DNA of 38,635 bases from an uncultured Caryophanales bacterium (lineage in GTDB: Bacteria > Bacillota_I > Bacilli_A > RFN20 > CAG-449). Position 1 is the stretch's first letter; each line of letters starts with the position of its first letter. The notes beneath the pieces are model-generated. The model had not been told where the DNA came from. It did not search any database and was given only the letters and a program-made list of their open reading frames with translations. This document shows positions 6,403 to 38,509 of the stretch, one piece after another. The DNA is taken from the NCBI GenBank assembly GCA_945873815.1, contig CAMCEE010000016.1, positions 1-38,635 on the forward strand. Reading direction: 5' to 3'. A program made the position numbers and the translations under genes.

Positions 6403-7707
6403 TTATTTTCTTACTTTCTTACCGATTGCATAATATGTTACACCTTGTAATTGATATGGATTCAATACAGCTTTACCATCAAATACAATTGGGTGCTTCA
6501 TAAACTCAATGATTTCTTCTGCTTTTAATGATTTGAATTCTTCACTTTCATTTAAGAAGATTGCATAATCGCTAGTTCTTAATGCTTCCTCTAATGTATT
6601 TGCATAAACAAGATGTTGATCGCTCTTCATCTTCTTTCTAAATGCATTAGTTGAATTTGAATCATAAGCGATAACTTTAGCATCTTCCTTAAGTAAATTC
6701 TCAATTACCTTAAATGCAGGAGATTCTCTAATATCATCCGTATTTCCTTTATATGCTAAACCAAGAACTGCGAACTTTTTTCCTGCGCAACTTCCAATGA
6801 TGGATTTAATTTTCTTAATGAGCGCTAAAGGACGAGAACTATTAACTCTAACCGCAGCATTTAAAATTTGTAAATCTACATTATTTTCTTGAGCCATTTC
6901 TCTCATAACGTTAGTATCTTGTGGAAGAGAAGGTCCTCCAAATCCAACGCCAGAAGCTAAATATTTATTTCCAATACGTGGATCTAAACCGATACCGAAA
7001 CTTACTTCTTTAATATCTGCTCCTACAGCATCACATAAATCAGCAATTTCATTAATGTATGATAATTTGACTGCCAAATAACAGTTTGAAGCATATTTAA
7101 TTAATTCAGCACTTTCTGGTGAAACGAACAATAATGGTGAATCAAATCCAGCATATAATTCTTTCATCACTTTTTGTGCTTCTTTAGTGGAAACACCAAC
7201 AACAATTCTTGAAGGAGAAAGCATATCCTTAATCGCAGTACCTTGTGATAAGAAATCTGGGTTTGAAACTACATCAATCTTAAATTTATGTCCGACACAC
7301 TCTTCAACAAATTCTTTAAAATGCTTGTTCGTTCCAACAGGGACCGTAGTTCTAATAATCAATGTAACATCTTGATTAATGAATCTTGCGCACTCTTTTG
7401 CAACGCTATATAAAGGAGTTAAATCTAATACTCCTGGTTCTTTCTCTTTTTCTTTTGTCTCAATGCAGAACATAATAACATTTGAATCATAAATTGCATC
7501 TCTATATTCTGATGTGAATCTAATATTAACATCGTTTTTTGCAAGGATATCTTCTAACTTGTATTCATTTCTAAATACTTCATTTCTTCTAAATGCAGCA
7601 ATCTTTTTCTTATCTGAGTCTAAAGCAAAAACTTGATGACCTTTTTCTGCAAAGCCAACAGCGTTAACTAGCCCAACAAAATCCATTCCTACAATTGTTA
7701 TTTTCAT
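6403..7707 (-). CDS. UDP-glucose 6-dehydrogenase family protein lacking the catalytic Cys
   Basis: This 434-residue protein aligns along the whole length of UDP-glucose/UDP-ManNAc dehydrogenases, which oxidise a nucleotide sugar with NAD+ to the uronate. Retained: RTTVPVGT (119-126), the Lys and Asn of the central motif (K204, N208), Asp264, and the C-terminal NTDDIRESPA. Changed: the active-site motif, normally GGSCxPKD, reads GGPSLPQD (258-264), so the nucleophilic Cys is Ser260 and the Lys is Gln; the first Gly-rich motif GxGxxG reads GMDFVG with Asp at the second Gly; and NPEFLREG reads NPDFLSQG. It may be a weak or altered enzyme, or a regulatory paralogue. A cre-like site lies upstream, and the ribosome site is GGAGG. 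Confidence 0.8.
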   Translation of the reverse strand: MKITIVGMDFVGLVNAVGFAEKGHQVFALDSDKKKIAAFRRNEVFRNEYKLEDILAKNDVNIRFTSEYRDAIYDSNVIMFCIETKEKEKEPGVLDLTPLYSVAKECARFINQDVTLIIRTTVPVGTNKHFKEFVEECVGHKFKIDVVSNPDFLSQGTAIKDMLSPSRIVVGVSTKEAQKVMKELYAGFDSPLLFVSPESAELIKYASNCYLAVKLSYINEIADLCDAVGADIKEVSFGIGLDPRIGNKYLASGVGFGGPSLPQDTNVMREMAQENNVDLQILNAAVRVNSSRPLALIKKIKSIIGSCAGKKFAVLGLAYKGNTDDIRESPAFKVIENLLKEDAKVIAYDSNSTNAFRKKMKSDQHLVYANTLEEALRTSDYAIFLNESEEFKSLKAEEIIEFMKHPIVFDGKAVLNPYQLQGVTYYAIGKKVRK

Positions 7708-7770
7708 ATACTACCTCCGCTAAGTAATCGTGCAAAATAATTATTACATAAAAATTCATTTTTTACTAAA

Positions 7771-7784
7771 TGTGAACGCTTACA
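7771..7784 (-). promoter_or_regulatory. Consensus cre (CcpA) site upstream of the ugd-like gene
   Basis: On the - strand the sequence is TGTAAGCGTTCACA, which fits the cre consensus TGWAANCGNTNWCA at every defined position. It lies 64-77 nt before the ugd-like start and just beyond the hydrolase stop. Carbon-catabolite control of the dehydrogenase-like gene is the natural inference. Confidence 0.65.
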
Positions 7785-7791
7785 ATAAGAA

Positions 7792-21680: not shown

Positions 21681-24600
21681 TTATTTATTTAAGAATTTTT
21701 TAAGTCTATTCCATCTATCTTCAGCACATTTTTGTGATTTTTGTAAGAGTTCTTCACAATGTTCTGGGTTAACCTTTGGTAATTGTGAGTAACGTGTTTC
21801 GCACATTACAAAGTCTCTAAATTTGCTGAAATCAGGTTCTTGGCAATCTAATTGCATTGCATCTTCACCCTTACGTGGATCGTATCTGAAGATTGGGAAG
21901 TAACCACATTCAACAGCTTTCTTTTCTGTTAATTGTGCATTAGCTAAGCCACCCTTGATACCATGGTTTGCACATGGTGAATAGCAAATGATAATTGAAG
22001 GACCTTCATATGATTCTGCTTCTTTCATAGCTTTAATTGCTTGCATCTTATTTGCACCCATTGAAATTTGTGCAACATAGACATTTCCATAAGCAATAGC
22101 CATCATTGCTAAGAACTTCTTAGAAGTTGTTTTACCTGAAGCTGTGAATTTAGCAATAGAACCAGTTTGAGATGATTTTGATGATTGACCACCAGTATTT
22201 GAATATACTTCTGTATCAAGAACCATAACATTAACATCATCTTCACTAGCTAAAACATGATCTAATCCGCCGTAGCCAATATCGTATGCCCATCCGTCAC
22301 CACCGACAATCCATACTGATTTATCAACTAAGTCTCTCTTATAGCCTTTTAATTCTTCTAAATTATTGTCATCAATTGCTTTTTCAAGATCAGCTTTAAT
22401 ATCTCTTACATGGTCACGGTTCTTAATGTTATCCATGTAATCTTTGAATAATGCTTTAGTTTCTTCTGGAACTAAGTTTTCATCAATTGCTTTAGTCATT
22501 AATCTACAGATTTCTGCGAGTTTGTAGTTTGTTGCAACTCTCATACCAAATCCGTATTCAGCATTATCTTCAAATAATGAGTTAGCCCAAGCGATACCTT
22601 CGCCATTCTTATCTGTACAGAATGGAGTTAATGGTGTAGAACCATTGTAGATTGATGAACAACCTGTTGCGTTAGCAATTAACATATCCTTACCAAATAG
22701 TTGAGATGCTAATCTGTAATATGGAGTTTCTCCACATCCAGCACATGCACCAGATACTTCATGATATGGATATAAGAATGCTGCACCTTTAACTGTTAAT
22801 GGGTTATTACCACCTAATTTATATTCAACATTCTTGTACAAATAGTTTGCAGCATCTTCTTGTGGGAATTGTGATTTTGCTTCAACCATCTTGAGAGCTT
22901 TTACTTTTGTAACTTCGCCAGTTACTGGATCCTTAACAGGTTTACCTGGACATTCGTTAACACAAACACCACATCCAACACAGTTTCTTGGTGAAACTTG
23001 AATTCTGAATTTCAATCCTTTTGATTGTGGTCCACCCATTGCATCAAGGACATCACCTTTTGCAATTTCTGGAAGTCCAGCTACTTCTTTTTCATCTAAT
23101 AAGAATGGTCTAATAGTTGCATGTGGACATACGAATGCACATTGATTACATTGAATACAATTTTCTTTTGCCCATACTGGAACTCTATCAGCAATAGAAC
23201 GTTTTTCATTGAATGTGATATCGTTTCTCATTGAACCATCTAATAATTCATATTCTAAGAATTTTGATGTTGGTAAATCATATCCATCAAGTGAACCGAT
23301 AACATTGACGTATGAATCGAAGTATTCGTCACCTGTTTTTGCATATACTCTAGCTTTTGGTAAATCACTCCATGCTGGATCTACTGGAACTTCAACTAAG
23401 CCTTCTGCGCCAGCATCAATTGCATCCCAGTTCATCTTAACGATATCGTCACCTTTTTTACCATAAGCCTTCTTAGCGAATTTCTTCATCCAATCTTGTG
23501 CTTCTGCATATGGCATGATAGTTGGGTTTAAATAGAAGAATGCTGATTGTAAAATTGTATTTGTTCTACGACCTAAACCAATCTTTTGAGCTAATGCATT
23601 TGCATCAATAATATAGAATTTAGCATGTTTGTCAGCTAATTGTTTCTTCATTCTATTTGGCATCTTCTCAACTAATGTCTTTGCATCCATATCTGTATTG
23701 AGTAAGAATGTACCATTTTCTTTTAAGCACTTGATCATATCAAATTTGAACATATATGAGTCAAGTGAGCATGATAAGAAGTTTGCATGTTCAACGTAAT
23801 ATGTTGAACGAATTGGTTCTTTACCGAATCTTAAGTGTGAACGAGTAACACCACCAGCTTTTCTTGAGTCATATGCAAAATATGCTTGTGCGTATTGTCC
23901 TGTTGCATCACCGATAATCTTAATTGATGATTTATTTGCAGAAACAGTACCATCTGAACCTAATCCATAGAATAAGCAAGATGTATAATTTCCAACAACG
24001 TGGAATGAATCATCAACAGGGATTGATAAATGTGTAACATCATCAACGATACCAACAGTAAATCCGTTAAATGGTTTATTATCTAAGAAGTCATAAACTG
24101 CTTTAACGTGTTTTGGTTGTGTATCTTTTGAAGATAATCCATAACGTCCACCGACGATAACATCAAATTTACGTCCCATTTGTGCGCAAGCTGCAACTAC
24201 ATCAAGATATAATGGTTCGCCTGTTGCACCTGTTTCTTTTGTTCTATCAAGTACAGCAACTTTCTTAACCGTTGAAGGGATAACATCAACTAAGTGTTTT
24301 GCTGAGAATGGTCTATATAAGTGAACTTTTACTAAACCGACTTTTTCGCCTTTTGCTAATAATGCATCAACGACTTCTTTAGCACATTCAGTAACAGAAC
24401 CCATTGCAACGATTACTTTTGTTGCATCATCTGCACCATAATATGTAAATGGAGCATAATGTCTGCCTGATAATCTCGATGCTTCTTCAAAGTACTTTTC
24501 AGCGATTTCTAATACTTTATTAAAGTGTGCGTTTTGTGCTTCTCTACCTTGGAAGTAGATATCATCGTTTTCTGCACCACCCTTTGTAACTGGATGAGTA

Positions 24601-25241
24601 TGTGGATTTAAAGCTGAAGCTCTAAATGTTTCTAATGAATCTTTATCCATTAATTTGACCCATTCATTTTCATCAACGAATTCAACGTTTTGAATTTCGT
24701 GTGAAGTTCTGAATCCATCAAAGAAATGAACAACTGGAACACGTGAAGCAATTGCAGTCAAATGAGCAACATTAGCTAAATCAGCACATTCTTGAACAGA
24801 ATGAGAGCAAATCATTGTTGCACCTGTTTGTCTAACTGCATAAATATCTTGGTGATCACCAAAGATTGAAAGTGAACGAGTTGCAAGAGATCTTGCTGAA
24901 ACGTGTAATACTGCTGGTAAACATTCTCCAACCCATTTATAAATGTTTGGAATCATTAAGAGTAATCCTTGTGATGCAGTATATGTAGTTGCAAGAGCAC
25001 CTGCTTGTAATGCACCATGGACTGTACCTGAAGCACCTGCTTCAGATTGCATTTCAACAACTTTAGCTCTAGTTCCAAACGCATTTAGTTTTCCTTCTGC
25101 TGCGTATTGTTCAACAAGTTCAGCCATTGTTGATGAAGGTGTGATTGGGTAAATACTAGCAACTTCTGTAAAAGTATATGAACTTAATGCAGTAGCAGTA
25201 TTACCATCAACTGAAAGAAATGATTTTTTAATTTCGGACAT
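21681..25241 (-). CDS. nifJ: Pyruvate:ferredoxin (flavodoxin) oxidoreductase
   Basis: A 1186-residue single-chain PFOR, which splits pyruvate to acetyl-CoA and CO2 and passes electrons to ferredoxin or flavodoxin; typical of strict anaerobes. Domain I starts with FLSVDGNTATA and contains YPITPSSTMAE. The ferredoxin-like domain VI has two 4Fe-4S motifs (CIQCNQCAFVCPHA and CVGCGVCVNECPGKP, about residues 690-760). The proximal cluster uses Cys of CAGCGETPY and a C-terminal Cys (CYSPCANHGI). The TPP site is GDGWAYDIGYGG (near 980). I start at the ATG at 25241 (AAAGGGG site); an ATG nine codons earlier would put this site inside the gene. It is monocistronic. Confidence 0.96.
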   Translation of the reverse strand: MSEIKKSFLSVDGNTATALSSYTFTEVASIYPITPSSTMAELVEQYAAEGKLNAFGTRAKVVEMQSEAGASGTVHGALQAGALATTYTASQGLLLMIPNIYKWVGECLPAVLHVSARSLATRSLSIFGDHQDIYAVRQTGATMICSHSVQECADLANVAHLTAIASRVPVVHFFDGFRTSHEIQNVEFVDENEWVKLMDKDSLETFRASALNPHTHPVTKGGAENDDIYFQGREAQNAHFNKVLEIAEKYFEEASRLSGRHYAPFTYYGADDATKVIVAMGSVTECAKEVVDALLAKGEKVGLVKVHLYRPFSAKHLVDVIPSTVKKVAVLDRTKETGATGEPLYLDVVAACAQMGRKFDVIVGGRYGLSSKDTQPKHVKAVYDFLDNKPFNGFTVGIVDDVTHLSIPVDDSFHVVGNYTSCLFYGLGSDGTVSANKSSIKIIGDATGQYAQAYFAYDSRKAGGVTRSHLRFGKEPIRSTYYVEHANFLSCSLDSYMFKFDMIKCLKENGTFLLNTDMDAKTLVEKMPNRMKKQLADKHAKFYIIDANALAQKIGLGRRTNTILQSAFFYLNPTIMPYAEAQDWMKKFAKKAYGKKGDDIVKMNWDAIDAGAEGLVEVPVDPAWSDLPKARVYAKTGDEYFDSYVNVIGSLDGYDLPTSKFLEYELLDGSMRNDITFNEKRSIADRVPVWAKENCIQCNQCAFVCPHATIRPFLLDEKEVAGLPEIAKGDVLDAMGGPQSKGLKFRIQVSPRNCVGCGVCVNECPGKPVKDPVTGEVTKVKALKMVEAKSQFPQEDAANYLYKNVEYKLGGNNPLTVKGAAFLYPYHEVSGACAGCGETPYYRLASQLFGKDMLIANATGCSSIYNGSTPLTPFCTDKNGEGIAWANSLFEDNAEYGFGMRVATNYKLAEICRLMTKAIDENLVPEETKALFKDYMDNIKNRDHVRDIKADLEKAIDDNNLEELKGYKRDLVDKSVWIVGGDGWAYDIGYGGLDHVLASEDDVNVMVLDTEVYSNTGGQSSKSSQTGSIAKFTASGKTTSKKFLAMMAIAYGNVYVAQISMGANKMQAIKAMKEAESYEGPSIIICYSPCANHGIKGGLANAQLTEKKAVECGYFPIFRYDPRKGEDAMQLDCQEPDFSKFRDFVMCETRYSQLPKVNPEHCEELLQKSQKCAEDRWNRLKKFLNK

Positions 25242-25373
25242 ATATATAGTAACCCCTTTCTTGATCATATTTTTTCATCAAAATATATTGTAATATATTT
25301 ATATAAGCATTTCCATAACAAATAAAAATATTAAAATAATATTTTATCGAATTGGTATTTTTTTCCTAATCCA

Positions 25374-25416
25374 CTAAAAAAAGATACTCCCATTACATGA
25401 TAAGAAAAGTATCTTT
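25374..25416 (-). terminator. Rho-independent terminator of galU
   Basis: Read on the - strand, AAGATACT and AGTATCTT pair around a 19-nt loop and run into seven T, 14 nt past the galU stop. Confidence 0.8.
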
Positions 25417-25429
25417 CTATATAGGATTG

Positions 25430-26302
25430 TTATTTAACTAATGAATTAATATATTCTTGTACTTTATCCTTTAATTCATCTCTTCTTAAACTAAAATCAA
25501 TAATAGCCTTAACAAAACCGAATTTATCTCCTACATCGTATCTTGTTCCTTCAAAATCATATGCATAGACTCCCTCGATATCCATAAGTCTTTTAATCGA
25601 ATCTGTAAGTTGAATTTCTCCTCCCTTTCCAGGAGTTTGAGTTTTTAATAATTCAAAGATTTTAGGAGTCAAGATATATCTACCTAATCCCGCATAACAA
25701 GAAGGAGCTTCTTCTGTCTTTGGTTTTTCAACAAAGTCAGATATCTTAATTAGTCTTCCATCAATACTAACTGGTTTAACTACACCATATTTATGAACTA
25801 CTTCTCTTGCAACTTCTTGTACCCCTAGAATTGAAGAACCAACCTTATCATAAGCATCAATCATTTGTTTTAAAACTGGAGTTCCTCCAACATTAGACAT
25901 TAAATCATCTCCAAGAAGAATTGCAAATGGCTCATCGCCTACAAACTCTTCAGCAAGAGAAACAGCATGTCCTAATCCTTTAGGATCATTTTGTTGAACG
26001 TAACTAATCTTGCACATAGTACCTATATGATGAACTAAATCATATTCATCCTTTTTATTTGTTTCTAATAATTTATTCTCTAATTTTTCATCAACAGAAA
26101 AATATTTATGAATTATAGTTTTATCAACATTATCAATAATTAAAATCTCTTCAATACCTGAATCTATTGCTTCTTCAATAATATATTGAACTGTTGGAAT
26201 ATCAATAATAGGCAACATCTCTTTTGGTAACCCTTTTGTAACCGGTAAAAATCTAGTTCCTAATCCCGCAGCAGGAATAATTGCTTTTCTAATTTTTTTC
26301 AT
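25430..26302 (-). CDS. galU: UTP-glucose-1-phosphate uridylyltransferase
   Basis: GalU makes UDP-glucose from UTP and glucose-1-phosphate. The 290-residue protein has the signature PAAGLGTRFLPVTKGLPKEM (residues 10-29), the metal region LLGDDLM, and FVEKPK, with the C-terminal RYDVGDKFGF motif of bacterial GalU. Length is normal. UDP-glucose is the precursor for the Ugd-like protein and for surface polysaccharide, which fits the polysaccharide locus further right. It has its own promoter and terminator and a GGGG ribosome site. Confidence 0.95.
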   Translation of the reverse strand: MKKIRKAIIPAAGLGTRFLPVTKGLPKEMLPIIDIPTVQYIIEEAIDSGIEEILIIDNVDKTIIHKYFSVDEKLENKLLETNKKDEYDLVHHIGTMCKISYVQQNDPKGLGHAVSLAEEFVGDEPFAILLGDDLMSNVGGTPVLKQMIDAYDKVGSSILGVQEVAREVVHKYGVVKPVSIDGRLIKISDFVEKPKTEEAPSCYAGLGRYILTPKIFELLKTQTPGKGGEIQLTDSIKRLMDIEGVYAYDFEGTRYDVGDKFGFVKAIIDFSLRRDELKDKVQEYINSLVK

Positions 26303-26331
26303 AATAAACCCCTTTTTTGTGTCACTTGTAT

Positions 26332-26359
26332 ATTATAACATTAAAAAATTAGTTGACAA
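26332..26359 (-). promoter_or_regulatory. Promoter of galU
   Basis: On the - strand TTGTCA (26359-26354), a 16-bp spacer and a perfect TATAAT (26337-26332), 30 nt before the galU start. Confidence 0.75.
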
Positions 26360-26570
26360 TCCCTTGTAAGCACAAAGATTGGTTATTCAGTAATTAACAA
26401 GAGAACTAACAAAAGAAATAATATTCTATCTAATATATTCTTATGTTACACTTAATTATTTATTAAGCCTTATAACGGTAAAATAACGTATATTCTGTAA
26501 CAAATTTCCATTTTTATTGAAATATCATTTTTCATATTATAAAATGAAATTGTCTTGGAGGATTATTATT

Positions 26571-26840
26571 ATGGTAAAAATCTTTGGTCAAGTAAATCAT
26601 CAACAAGGTTTAACATCAAGAATGTGTGCAGAATTAGTTGCAGAAGCTAATCGTGCATCTTCTTGCAATCTTACATTATACTCAAATGATGAAGAGGCAG
26701 ATTTAAAATCAATAATGAATATGATGTCATTACCAATGCATCATGAACAAGAATTCACTATTGAAATTGTTGGTGCAGATGAAGAAGCAGTAAAAACAAA
26801 ATTTGAAGAGCTTCTTAGAAAACTAAATTTATTAATTTAA
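26571..26840 (+). CDS. HPr-like protein without the active-site His (Crh-like)
   Basis: An 89-residue protein of the HPr fold. The C-terminal half reads like HPr, with the regulatory motif DLKSIMNMMSL in which Ser47 corresponds to Ser46 of HPr, the HPr kinase target. The catalytic region, normally GLHARP with the phospho-accepting His15, reads GLTSRM (residues 13-18), so His15 is Thr and PEP-dependent phosphotransfer is not expected. Bacillus Crh has the same logic with Gln at this site and acts as a CcpA co-regulator. A GGAGG site precedes the ATG at 26571. It is a single gene with its own terminator. Confidence 0.85.
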   Translation: MVKIFGQVNHQQGLTSRMCAELVAEANRASSCNLTLYSNDEEADLKSIMNMMSLPMHHEQEFTIEIVGADEEAVKTKFEELLRKLNLLI

Positions 26841-26863
26841 GCTCACACGAGCTTATTTTTTTT
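26839..26863 (+). terminator. Rho-independent terminator of the HPr-like gene
   Basis: AAGCTC (26839-26844) and GAGCTT (26849-26854) form the stem, followed by a long T-tract. It overlaps the last two bases of the stop codon. Confidence 0.85.
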
Positions 26864-26872
26864 GTTCCTGCA

Positions 26873-26878
26873 TATAAT
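26873..26878 (+). promoter_or_regulatory. Possible -10 box of alanine racemase
   Basis: TATAAT lies only 5 nt before the ATG at 26884. A start at the usual 6-8 nt beyond it would fall on the start codon, giving a leaderless message. No convincing -35 is seen. Confidence 0.4.
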
Positions 26879-26883
26879 TGAAT

Positions 26884-27891
26884 ATGCGTGGAACAATAGA
26901 AATCAATTTAAACAAATTAAAATCGAATTACCTTAAAGTTAAAGAGTATGCAAATAAGGATGTTATTGCTGTTATTAAATCAAATGCCTATGGACACGGG
27001 CTTATTCCTATTGCAACTGCATTATATAACTCAGGTTGCAACTCATTTTTAGTTGCAACTTTAGAAGAAGCATTACTATTACGATCTAGTAATATTAATG
27101 CACGTATTATCGTCTTAGAGAAAACGAAGAATTATTTCGTTATCTATCGTAATAATCTAAGTCTATCGATTTCATCAATGGAAGAATTAAAGGACGTTAT
27201 ATCATTCAATCATCCTTTAAAATTACAAATCAAAATAGATACAGGACTAAATAGATTAGGTTTATTACCAAAAGAAATAGACGAAGTTATTCTTCTATTA
27301 TCAAAATCAAAGCATATTATCGAAGGAATATACACTCATATACAAGATGAAGCAACATACGATATTCAAGAAAGATTATTCTATGAAACAATTAATAAAT
27401 TTGATCTATCAAAGATCAAAATGATTCATATTAATTCTAGTTCATACCTCAATCATCATCTAGAATATACAACTCATGTAAGGTGTGGATTATGTTTATA
27501 TGGCTATTCATCATTAATTGATGTAGAACCGATATTGACATTCCAAGTTCCAATATATCGCAAAATAAAAGTGAATAAAGGAGAATATATTGGATATCAT
27601 AAACATGCTTCTACTCCAGAAAATGGATATTTATATACAGTTCCACTAGGCTATGCAGATGGATGGAATAAGAACTATATTACCTTAGCCTTTTCAAATG
27701 AAATAATGCAAGAAATCGGAGATACATGTATGGACCATATGATGTTTTTCTCTACTAAAGACTACAATGGAGATAGTTTAGAAATAATAGGTCCAAATAT
27801 GCCATTAGCCACATTAAATAAATATAATTTCTCTTCTCCTTATGAAGTACTATCCTCATTATCTCCTCGTATAATTAGAAAATATATCTAA
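26884..27891 (+). CDS. alr: Alanine racemase
   Basis: A PLP-dependent enzyme that makes D-alanine for peptidoglycan. The 335-residue protein has the PLP-lysine motif AVIKSNAYGHG near residue 32, the PLP-phosphate/His region KIDTGLNRLG, and the second catalytic region with VPLGYADGW and GDTCMDHMM (family GxxxMDQ; the Gln is His). It is slightly shorter than the usual 360-380 residues, with a brief C-terminal domain. The ATG at 26884 follows TATAAT by 5 nt and has no ribosome site, so the transcript may be leaderless; a TTG two codons earlier overlaps that box. Confidence 0.9.
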   Translation: MRGTIEINLNKLKSNYLKVKEYANKDVIAVIKSNAYGHGLIPIATALYNSGCNSFLVATLEEALLLRSSNINARIIVLEKTKNYFVIYRNNLSLSISSMEELKDVISFNHPLKLQIKIDTGLNRLGLLPKEIDEVILLLSKSKHIIEGIYTHIQDEATYDIQERLFYETINKFDLSKIKMIHINSSSYLNHHLEYTTHVRCGLCLYGYSSLIDVEPILTFQVPIYRKIKVNKGEYIGYHKHASTPENGYLYTVPLGYADGWNKNYITLAFSNEIMQEIGDTCMDHMMFFSTKDYNGDSLEIIGPNMPLATLNKYNFSSPYEVLSSLSPRIIRKYI

Positions 27892-33293: not shown

Positions 33294-35138
33294 CTTTCGA
33301 CTAAAATTTAAGAGTTTTAAATTTTAATATTATAAATAATATTAATTTTTCAAATAAACTCTTTTTTTATGTTATAATTCTAGCGTTATCTAATGTTATA
33401 CAAAAGAAGATGTTTTTATAGCTTACTTTCTTAAAGTTTCTCATTAAAAAAAAGGTGATTATTTACAAATCTATGATTCTTTTCATGATAAAGAAAAAAA
33501 GCATTCTGTTCATAAATCTTATAAGGCTTTAGGTTATCTTGATGATCTTATTGCTTCTGGCATTGATGATCCTATTTCTTTTTACAAAGCTGAAGTTGAT
33601 AAGTTGAACAAAAAGGCTAAAATAGAAAAAGAAGAACTCGCGATTAGAAAGATTGATGAATCCCCAGTTAAGAATTTAGGTTATTTTCTAATAAAAGGTA
33701 TTTTTAATAGATTAGGTGTTAAGTTCCATCTTGATTTACTAGATAAGATTGAAAAAGAAGCAATATCTACTTATGATTACTTACTAAATATGGTTTCCGC
33801 TAGAATCATTAATCCTTGTTCAAAGATTAAGACATATGAAGAAGTATTACCCACTTTATTTGAGCCATATAACATTTCTAAAGATCAAATGTATGGTAAA
33901 TTAGATTTTATTGGTGATAATTATTCTCGAATACTTGAAGTGTTTAATGAATTCTATAACAAAAAATACATTCGTAAAACTGGTAATGTATATTTTGACT
34001 GTACTAACTATTATTTTGAAATCGATTCTGAAGACGATTTCAGAAAAAAAGGTCCTTCAAAAGAAAATAGAAAAGATCCTATTGTCGGAATGGGTTTGTT
34101 GCTTGATGAAGATCAAATTCCTTTAACTATGAAACTATATCCTGGTAACGAATCTGAAAAACCAATTATTAGAGAGTGTATCAATGATATGAAAGAACGT
34201 TTTCATATGAATGGTAAAACCATTCAAGTCGCAGATAAAGGGTTGAATTGTTCTAAAAATATTTATGAAGCTTTAAAAAATGGAGATGGATATATATATT
34301 CTCAATCAGTTAAAAAGCTTGAAGAAAAAGAACAAAACTGGGTTTTATTAGATAATGATTACGTTGAAGTAAAAGATGATTTAGGCAACGTTGAATTTAA
34401 ATATAAGAAATGTATCGACGACTTCACATATAAACTTGATAATTCTAAATTCACAGTTAAACAAATTAGAGTCGCTTCTTTTAATCCATCTTTAGCTAGA
34501 AAACAAAAAGCCGAAATACTTAAACAAGTTGATAAAATCAAATCTCTTTCTACTTCTCAAGCTAAAAGAAAAGAATATGGTGATGCTTCAAAATATGTTA
34601 CTTTTACTCCTATTGATTCTAAAGGTGAAGTTGATGATGAAACAATTGTTATTGCTTCTTTAAATAACGAAAAAATCAATAAAGATCTAGCTTTATGTGG
34701 ATATAACTTAATTATCTCTTCTGAAATAAAAATGCAACCAATTGAAATTTATCATATCTACCATCGCTTATGGAGAATTGAAGAAACTTTTAGAATTCTA
34801 AAATCAGAACTAGATGCTAGACCAGTTTATTGTCATAAGCAAAACACTATTTATGGTCATTTCTTGATTTGCTACTTATCTGTTTTCCTATTAAGGATAC
34901 TTCAAATAAAGAAATTTAAAGATAAAATACATACAAATAATATCATTAATTTTATTAGATCATTCATTGTCTTAAAAGAAAAAGATAGAATCATTAATCT
35001 CTCTTCTAAAGATAATATTCTGCCTCTTTCTAATGTTCTAAATTTGAATATCGATAACTATGTTTTTAAACCAAATGATGTCGAAAAATTACTTAATTTA
35101 AAGGTTTAACACTAGATTTTTCTTTGATTTGTCGAAAG
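33294..35138 (+). mobile_element. IS1634-like (IS4-superfamily) insertion sequence
   Basis: The element carries one DDE transposase gene. Likely terminal inverted repeats begin CTTTCGACTAA (33294) on the left and CTTTCGACAAA on the right (reverse complement, ending 35138), so the length is about 1.85 kb, normal for this family. No target duplication is obvious. The right end abuts the 3' end of an older IS3-family remnant, so this is a nested insertion in a damaged polysaccharide locus. Confidence 0.7.
33604..35109 (+). CDS. IS1634-type DDE transposase, 5' end damaged
   Basis: A transposase of the IS4 superfamily, IS1634 group. DDE residues are in FDCTNYYFE, VADKGLN and the YREK-like YHRLWRIEETFRILK. 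The frame is open from 33448, giving GDYLQIYDS and LGYLDDL that belong to the family's N terminus, but no start codon exists before the TTG at 33604. Further upstream a TAA (33445-33447) lies just before an A8 run, and a candidate ATG at 33410 is in another frame and soon hits TAG. Hence the N-terminal 60-70 residues are probably cut off or need a frameshift. The catalytic domain (501 codons from 33604) is intact. Confidence 0.85.
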   Translation: MNKKAKIEKEELAIRKIDESPVKNLGYFLIKGIFNRLGVKFHLDLLDKIEKEAISTYDYLLNMVSARIINPCSKIKTYEEVLPTLFEPYNISKDQMYGKLDFIGDNYSRILEVFNEFYNKKYIRKTGNVYFDCTNYYFEIDSEDDFRKKGPSKENRKDPIVGMGLLLDEDQIPLTMKLYPGNESEKPIIRECINDMKERFHMNGKTIQVADKGLNCSKNIYEALKNGDGYIYSQSVKKLEEKEQNWVLLDNDYVEVKDDLGNVEFKYKKCIDDFTYKLDNSKFTVKQIRVASFNPSLARKQKAEILKQVDKIKSLSTSQAKRKEYGDASKYVTFTPIDSKGEVDDETIVIASLNNEKINKDLALCGYNLIISSEIKMQPIEIYHIYHRLWRIEETFRILKSELDARPVYCHKQNTIYGHFLICYLSVFLLRILQIKKFKDKIHTNNIINFIRSFIVLKEKDRIINLSSKDNILPLSNVLNLNIDNYVFKPNDVEKLLNLKV

Positions 35139-36820: not shown

Positions 36821-38509
36821 CTATTTCATTTCATCAAGGTATCTTTTTAAAGCATCTTCCCATTTAGGCAATCTATTGAAACCTGCTTCGTCTAGTGAAG
36901 ATTTAGATAGTCTAGAATTAAGAGGCCTTTTTGCTTGTTGTGGAAACATATTTAGATATTCATTAGTTGAAATCGGTATAACTTTAACATTTTTCTTAGA
37001 TAATTCAAATATTTTTTTTGCAAAATCTGCCCATGATAAAAATCCTTCATTTGTAGCGTGATAGATTCCATATTTATCAGTTTCAATCATATCACAAAGC
37101 AATTTTGCTAAATCACGTGTATAAGTTACGCTTCCTATTTGATCAGAAACAACTTTAACCTCGTTTTTTCCTTCGTCAGCAATTTTAAGCATTGTTTTAA
37201 CGAAATTATTTCCATTTTTACCAAATGCCCATGAAATTCTCACAATAAAATATTTATTGTGGCTAGAAACAATATAATCTTCACCAAGAGATTTTGTCCT
37301 ACCATATACAGACAAGCCACACTTAGAATCATCTATTTCAAACGGAGTATTCCCAAGACCATCAAAAACATAATCTGTAGAAATGTATATCATCTTTGCA
37401 CCTAATACGTTGCAAGCTTCAGCAATAAACTTAGGAGCCAATGAATTAATCTGATATACTTTTTCCTCATTTTCTTCTGCAATATCAACCGAAGTCCATG
37501 CAGCATTATGAATAACAATATCTGGTTTATAATTAAACAAAAAAGCTTTTGTATCGCTTTCGTTAGTTAAATCTAGATCTTCAATATCTATTCCTCTAAC
37601 ATTTATATATTCACGATTACTAAGTTCTCTCATGCAATCAAATCCAAGTTGGCCTTTACATCCCGTTACAAGAATTCTTTTTGATTTTAAAACAATATTC
37701 CTTATTTTCGAATTATCACCATATATACATGGCGAATCATATGGTCTATCTGGATAGACACCATACTTTAATTCAATTGGTAATTTATTATACGAAATAT
37801 ACCATTCAACTTGTTCTGCTAATGACACTGCTTTACCTGAGCAAACATTAATTATTCCCAACACTTTATCTTGCATTACACACATTGAAATTTGCTTTGC
37901 CAAATCATCTATATGAATAAAATCATATTTATTCTTACCAGTAGTGAAAGGAAATGTCTTCTCTCCTCGCTCAACTGCTTGCCTAATCTTACAGAAAATA
38001 GAATTTCCAAACGTATCATCACCAAAAATATAATATGCTCTTAGCCATTGAAATTTACATCCTTTTTGTAAAGAATATAATTCAATAGATTTTCTTAATG
38101 CATTTTTAGCAATTCCATATTGTGATAGTGGATTGCAAGGAGTATTTTCGTCGATTACGCCTTCCCAATACCCAATTTCATGCATTGTGCCCATAACAGC
38201 TATTTGATTGATGCCTTCATCAATGAGTTTTGTTAAAAAACGATAATGATTTGATAAGTCAAGCATGTGTTTATTTGAATTATGAACAAATCCATTTCTC
38301 CAAGCTAAATGTAAGCATACATCCGGATTCTTAAAAAAAGATTTCCATTCTTCTCTTTCTTCAAAAATATTAGCTTCAATAAAGCAAGCTCTTTTGTCAA
38401 TATTTGTGCAACTTAAATCAGTAGCAATAACTTCTACCCCAAAATCACAAAGTTTTTTTACTACTTTAGATCCTATGTATCCATTAGCACCTGTCACTAA
38501 TATTTTCAT
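36821..38509 (-). CDS. Fused NAD-dependent epimerase/dehydratase and dTDP-4-dehydrorhamnose reductase
   Basis: A 562-residue two-domain protein. The first domain (about 1-275) is an extended SDR epimerase/dehydratase with the NAD motif GANGYIG (7-13) and the YxxxK pair Y131/K135. The second (about 278-562) is RmlD-like, with GCKGQLG (283-289), STDYVFDG (377-384) and Y402/K406; RmlD makes dTDP-L-rhamnose with NAD(P)H. The upstream rfbC end and the overlap of signals (stop TAA 1 nt before this ATG) show a dTDP-rhamnose operon. What the first domain does, perhaps another nucleotide-sugar step, is unknown. Such fusions occur in some Firmicutes, but separate genes are usual. Confidence 0.85.
   Translation of the reverse strand: MKILVTGANGYIGSKVVKKLCDFGVEVIATDLSCTNIDKRACFIEANIFEEREEWKSFFKNPDVCLHLAWRNGFVHNSNKHMLDLSNHYRFLTKLIDEGINQIAVMGTMHEIGYWEGVIDENTPCNPLSQYGIAKNALRKSIELYSLQKGCKFQWLRAYYIFGDDTFGNSIFCKIRQAVERGEKTFPFTTGKNKYDFIHIDDLAKQISMCVMQDKVLGIINVCSGKAVSLAEQVEWYISYNKLPIELKYGVYPDRPYDSPCIYGDNSKIRNIVLKSKRILVTGCKGQLGFDCMRELSNREYINVRGIDIEDLDLTNESDTKAFLFNYKPDIVIHNAAWTSVDIAEENEEKVYQINSLAPKFIAEACNVLGAKMIYISTDYVFDGLGNTPFEIDDSKCGLSVYGRTKSLGEDYIVSSHNKYFIVRISWAFGKNGNNFVKTMLKIADEGKNEVKVVSDQIGSVTYTRDLAKLLCDMIETDKYGIYHATNEGFLSWADFAKKIFELSKKNVKVIPISTNEYLNMFPQQAKRPLNSRLSKSSLDEAGFNRLPKWEDALKRYLDEMK

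Follow-up and report, generated by a model that had tools for sequence, protein, structure and literature searches.

Gene content of the locus and the HPr-family protein

The window, i.e. the whole stretch of 38,635 nucleotides that was analysed, from an uncultured Caryophanales bacterium, carries an HPr-family gene at positions 26571-26840. The features used in this study are the following.

7770-7785, plus strand: cre-like site ATGTGAACGCTTACAA, an exact 16-mer, tentative CcpA operator
25430-26302, minus strand: galU-like nucleotidyltransferase gene, divergent, conserved next to HPr in many relatives
26557-26561, plus strand: GGAGG ribosome-binding site, read directly from the sequence
26571-26840, plus strand: HPr-family gene, 89 aa, without His15, Ser46 site present, the only HPr of the genome
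26613-26615, plus strand: codon ACA, Thr15, in place of the phosphorylatable His15, adjoining helix 16-28 of the structural model
26709-26711, plus strand: codon TCA, Ser47, which corresponds to Ser46 and is the target site of HPr kinase, from the translation and the relatives' sequences
26839-26863, plus strand: apparent intrinsic terminator overlapping the HPr stop codon, seen by eye
26878-27891, plus strand: alanine racemase gene, conserved downstream neighbour of HPr

The GGAGG motif lies 10 nt upstream of the HPr ATG. Read directly from the sequence, the apparent terminator is made up of AAGCTC-ACAC-GAGCTT, then one A and eight T, and overlaps the stop codon, so the HPr gene is probably transcribed alone. 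In many relatives, HPr has pyruvate:ferredoxin oxidoreductase, galU and alanine racemase genes as its neighbours. The order seen in the window at 21681-27891 (pyruvate:ferredoxin oxidoreductase, galU, HPr, alanine racemase) is conserved in several families of the taxonomic order.

In the open frame of 89 codons, GLTSRM occupies residues 13-18 and DLKSIMNMMSL residues 44-54. Residues 44-50 (DLKSIMN) form an intact HPr-kinase target, the Ser46 equivalent being shifted to residue 47 by a one-residue insertion. The protein matched the Pfam family PTS-HPr (PF00381) with 57.2 bits for a cut-off of 23, and TIGR01003 with 49.4 for a cut-off of 47.9. It did not reach the equivalog model NF010354/PRK13782 (39 bits, cut-off 123), which we take to be the Crh-type model and which is titled "HPr family phosphocarrier protein". 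The solved structures nearest in sequence were HPr and Crh entries. An AlphaFold model, built on 18 aligned sequences, had a mean pLDDT of 92.3 and superposed on HPr 1ptf with a TM-score of 0.91 and an rmsd of 1.1, Crh entries coming further down the list. In this model, Thr15 directly precedes helix 16-28, at the spot of the phosphorylated His15 of HPr. Translation, profile matches and model thus bear out the original prediction that the protein has Thr at position 15 and retains the Ser46 motif. The fold is ordinary, and the chemistry probably is too; position 15 would no longer carry phosphate, and Thr15 may cap helix 1 as a structural replacement. A sequencing error at the His15 of an ordinary HPr is ruled out, as Thr15 was found order-wide (see below).

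A sole HPr and an HPr kinase in the genome, and their counterparts in the order

The genome of the window is 1.80 Mb long and 96.5% complete. Searching all of it with PF00381 gave one HPr match only, which rules out a normal HPr elsewhere of which the window gene would be a paralogue. It had been described as a paralogue, and on this point the prediction has to be revised: there is no second HPr, and the tree presented below indicates that HPr was replaced across a whole clade. No match to enzyme I (PF05524) or EIIC (PF02378) was found anywhere in the genome, PTS absence being judged by these two profiles. An HPr kinase is present (G000:C25:7329-7832), with both domains, the Walker A motif GESGIGKSE and an E value of 2e-56 against solved HprK. 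Its gene adjoins uvrA-, lgt-, trxB- and whiA-like frames, named by inspection. Among the components proposed as a check on the gene (a normal HPr, EI/EIIs and hprK), hprK was therefore found, while the second HPr, enzyme I and EIIC were absent.

Three LacI-family regulators are encoded in the same genome. One ends in YEVGSIAMRMVTK, which aligns with YDIGAVAMRLLTK of solved CcpA (1zvv, 1rzr), and the other two lack this ending. By alignment, the genome holds a CcpA with the Ser46-P pocket. The likeness to Crh that had been proposed thus stands for the retained parts, namely the Ser46 site and, elsewhere in the genome, HprK and a CcpA whose Ser-P pocket is present.

The analysis was extended to an order set of 98 genomes, made of this genome and its relatives. 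HPr was found in 46 of them and HprK in 41. Enzyme I was detected in 2, namely G001 and, as a partial match, G069. Both HPr and HprK were present in 40 genomes, HPr only in 6, HprK only in 1, and neither in 51. Among the six HPr-bearing genomes (of 46) in which HprK was not detected, G005 and G018 are about 95% complete, and the other four 69-84%.

Residue 15 was read in 47 HPrs from the 46 genomes: 39 have Thr, two each have His, Asn or Ser, and one each has Gly or Val. The Ser46-equivalent serine is present in 46 of the 47. One of the two His15 cases is a copy in G001, where a canonical GIHARP HPr (L002/L040/L276), enzyme I and EIIC lie together on contig C80 and the Thr15 HPr on another contig. 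Contig C80 is probably contamination, the bin being 5% contaminated; G001 was kept in the counts as an enzyme-I-positive genome. The other is the odd HPr-like protein of G039 (L009, family f8), with GLHAKK and DVKSILG; HprK and enzyme I were not found in this genome, and its CcpA homologue lacks the pocket.

Forty-four of the HPrs form an order clade (see below) with Thr15 in 39/44, His15 in 0/44 and the serine in 44/44. Invariant in this clade are G13, R17, V23, A26, N27, K46, S47, I48, G68 and E71; S16 is found in 42/44 and E25 is near-invariant. Position 18 is free (L, S, I and others), compared with Pro in the His15 rows, which were picked by the letters HARP and are invariant at 15-18 by construction. 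Among seven same-genus HPr genes, dN/dS was 0.04-0.38 in the 20 computable pairs out of 21, and the gene is under purifying selection.

A family-alignment scan of GTDB contigs, which used short peptide patterns on 84,980 species according to the tool's description and would miss distant members, returned 41 loci, 39 of order type and 2 Izimaplasma-like with His15. Their titles name uncultured Bacilli, Bacillales, Erysipelotrichaceae, Candidatus Scatoplasma and others. Roe deer omasum figures in one title, and further isolate names point to animal guts.

Enzyme I, His15 and the CcpA pocket across genomes

In an evenly drawn sample of 149 genomes of the class, enzyme I was found in 81, HPr in 93 and HprK in 92. 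Residue 15 was read in fetched stretches, some extra HPr copies and a weak HPr match in G121 being left out, and joining the order set gave 134 genomes. All 79 of those with enzyme I have a His15 HPr (79/79). By contrast, 50 of the 55 without enzyme I have no His15 in any HPr read: 44 belong to the order, and the rest are three Gln15 genomes from family f28, one Asp15 and one Asn15 in f23, and one Asp15 in f12. His15 is kept despite the absence of enzyme I in G039, G104, G137, G182 and G209. The serine is retained in 55/55 genomes without enzyme I. The Izimaplasma HPr (L174) was left out of the enzyme I count, its genome being outside the enzyme I search. Outside the order, HprK accompanies HPr in 9/10 class genomes without enzyme I, the exception being G137, which is 62% complete. 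Fisher values on such counts ignore the kinship among genomes, and so overstate their independence.

A tree of 147 HPrs, computed on 88 columns and with many forks unresolved, groups the 44 order HPrs into one clade (support 100/99) and nests the three Gln15 HPrs among His15 HPrs from the same family (96/87, 97/96). From these two placements, the His was lost at least twice; the f23 and f12 forms make a third or fourth loss likely, i.e. some three or four independent losses. The only Crh-like row in the tree, G148 with Gln15, falls outside the order clade (100/99), as would fit the separate origin that had been proposed. In family f28 (g104; L212, L213, L214), the sole HPr has Gln15 and enzyme I is absent, which constitutes an independent Crh-like state.

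In canonical HPr structures, position 15 is exposed where helix 1 begins, and Thr15 or Ser16 could in principle have become a site for another kinase, making a two-site Ser/Thr switch. The frequency of both residues in the clade (39/44 and 42/44) would fit such a switch. However, S, N, G and V also occur at position 15 in the clade, and the other lineages without enzyme I have Gln, Asp or Asn, as expected from purely structural demands. We consider this switch very unlikely. Nor did phosphorylation on the Thr, which had been raised in the original prediction, find support: enzyme I, which would phosphorylate position 15, is absent, and four other residues substitute for Thr in the clade.

The partner side was examined on CcpA. 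HPr-Ser46-P contacts Arg303 of CcpA and displaces Thr306 (PMC6155242), and in B. subtilis CcpA it is Arg304 that contacts the Ser46 phosphate (PMC4591507). Orthologues of CcpA, assigned by best match, were found 75 times in the 98 genomes of the order set, and 73 of the 75, with full tails, were aligned; partial ones without the tail (G035, G078) were left out. Of the 41 aligned genomes that have HPr, 40 retain Arg303, Thr306 and Lys307 (B. megaterium numbering), versus 2 of the 32 that lack HPr. Where HPr is missing, the most frequent replacements are Tyr for Arg (22) and Asp for Lys (26). The only HPr-bearing genome without an intact pocket is G039. Conversely, the pocket is intact without HPr in G025 and in G072; the latter has HprK, and its HPr may simply be missing from an assembly that is 74% complete. 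HPr and an intact pocket have thus been co-lost in the order. Genomes of family f4 (e.g. L099, L100, L104) have neither HPr nor HprK but still encode a CcpA orthologue, in whose pocket R is changed to Y and K to D; judging from its sequence, this CcpA is apparently an HPr-independent descendant.

We take CcpA residue 296 to face HPr residues 15 and 17. The solved CcpAs compared here have Asp at this position. In genomes with HPr it is E in 21, K in 12, D in 3, R in 2, and Q, M and G in 1 each, and in those without HPr it is E in 25/32. Co-change of CcpA 296 with His15 is a lead rather than a result.

These data bear on two further explanations. One is that the main partner of HPr is an enzyme, as methylglyoxal synthase is for Crh, the CcpA contact being secondary. 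Unphosphorylated B. subtilis Crh inhibits MgsA (PMC9631020, PMC13130090), and the invariant A26 and N27 of helix 1, with the near-invariant E25, might form a new contact in the clade. Yet the CcpA pocket is altered in 30/32 aligned genomes without HPr, which ties HPr to CcpA, so that an enzyme as main partner seems unlikely. The other is that HPr is a decaying leftover of the lost PTS, devoid of present function. Enzyme I and EIIC are indeed gone, the large family f4 has dispensed with HPr and HprK altogether, and dN/dS values against the copy of the window are on the higher side (0.19-0.38). Decay is nevertheless most improbable in view of a kinase site invariant in 44/44 sequences, purifying selection, a conserved gene neighbourhood and a CcpA pocket retained where HPr is retained.

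A proposed PTS-free role for HPr

In model Firmicutes, HPr serves both sugar import, through His15, and carbon signalling, through Ser46, roles that are difficult to uncouple by mutation. Our two comparative tests, between enzyme I and His15 and between HPr and the CcpA pocket, support a Crh-like, PTS-free role for the window protein. We infer, with good though not full confidence and from comparison of sequences, that it is a purely regulatory HPr, descended from a PTS HPr whose import machinery was lost and whose kinase branch was left. Sugar would be taken up through non-PTS transporters. When glycolytic intermediates are plentiful, HPr kinase would phosphorylate Ser47, and HPr-Ser47-P would bind the CcpA orthologue via Arg303, Thr306 and Lys307. 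CcpA with bound HPr-Ser-P would then repress or activate carbon genes at cre-like sites, and when the intermediates drop, HPrK/P would dephosphorylate HPr.

Candidate targets were looked for with the pattern WTGNNARCGNWWWCAW, which we take to be the cre consensus. Exact matches occur at 5 places in the genome of the window (8 strand matches, three places matching on both strands). This number is not above controls, as the backwards pattern gave 16 and a scramble 9, and an abundance of cre sites over the genome was not found. All five places are intergenic (5/5, versus 3/9 for the scrambled pattern; Fisher 0.03) and lie about 59-165 nt before a frame. The one in the window, at 7770-7785, precedes a UDP-glucose/GDP-mannose dehydrogenase gene (6403-7707, minus strand) by 63 nt, and another lies in front of a frame resembling a solute-binding lipoprotein (L282, by inspection). 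Their placement is weakly suggestive of CcpA targets.

Several known systems resemble this one in part. Crh has no His15; HprK phosphorylates it on Ser46, and it acts together with CcpA (PMC9631020, PMC13130090). Like Crh of Bacillus and Geobacillus, the window protein has an HPr fold, a replaced His15 and a Ser46 site, with HprK and CcpA in the genome. Crh, however, is a second HPr that accompanies the canonical one in PTS-containing cells, and in P. thermoglucosidasius it has Gln15 (PMC9631020). The window protein, by contrast, is its genome's only HPr, carries Thr15, occurs in a cell without enzyme I and is encoded between galU and alr. On our best reading of the sequences, it would work like Crh; yet we do not class it as Crh, since one defining feature of Crh is to be the paralogue of a PTS HPr in the same cell. 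In Geobacillus, repression by ribose and xylose is reported to be mediated by Crh rather than HPr (PMC13130090), which by analogy suggests that a Crh-type protein can do the repression job alone. With canonical Gram-positive HPr (PtsH), the protein shares the fold, the Ser46 region and Arg17; it differs in lacking His15 and Pro18, and in belonging to a genome without enzyme I or EIIC.

A ptsH without ptsI was described by Comas et al. 2008 as rare and confined to few species, e.g. Bartonella and Ureaplasma urealyticum (PMC2405797). The window genome resembles these in having ptsH without ptsI; but what is a rare exception there (PMC2405797) is the rule among the HPr-bearers of the order, where it is coupled to HprK and a pocket-intact CcpA. 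Brucella, Xanthomonas and others have an incomplete, regulatory PTS, in which an HPr-type protein and HprK likewise occur but sugar is not imported by the PTS (PMC2937029, PMC6916182). Brucella has an enzyme I (EI-Ntr), and the window genome lacks both enzyme I and His15. PTS loss, together with predicted sugar uptake by ABC transporters, has been published for gut and environmental Tenericutes/Bacilli, including RF39 and RFN20 (PMC7301438); by word search, "HPr" is absent from the main text of that paper. In the open-access literature, subscription papers being mostly outside our scope, we found no account of a PTS-less clade whose only HPr lacks His15. On our best reading, the mechanism is the one known from Crh; what is new is that a relay without a PTS has become fixed throughout an order and has been arrived at more than once.

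On this reading, evolution has split the two jobs of HPr in many species, removing import and keeping the signalling parts. Sister lineages lost the signalling parts too, and the Ser-P pocket of their CcpA changed, which offers a natural test of the HPr and CcpA residues needed for signalling only. Catabolite control is also predicted in bacteria that import sugar without a PTS, to which the usual explanation by glucose entering through the PTS is inapplicable.

A broader proposal, to which we give somewhat less than an even chance, is that loss of enzyme I repeatedly makes HPr a dedicated carbon messenger reported by its kinase. In the order, HPr would then have been rebuilt around a new helix-1 surface shared order-wide (Thr15-Ser16-Arg17, E25-A26-N27). 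This surface would fit a CcpA that has co-evolved with it, residue 296 having moved away from Asp, and perhaps another partner too. If this is true, catabolite control by HPr-Ser-P is separable from the PTS, and can outlive it as a stable system at the level of an order.

Three other frames of the window were recorded. A membrane-protein-like frame of 343 aa at 992-2023 gave no Pfam match at 1e-5. A DDE transposase (PF01609) lies at 33604-35109, within a run of polysaccharide-type genes (neighbours named by inspection). At 36821-38509, an NAD-dependent epimerase domain and an RmlD (dTDP-4-dehydrorhamnose reductase) domain are fused in one frame.
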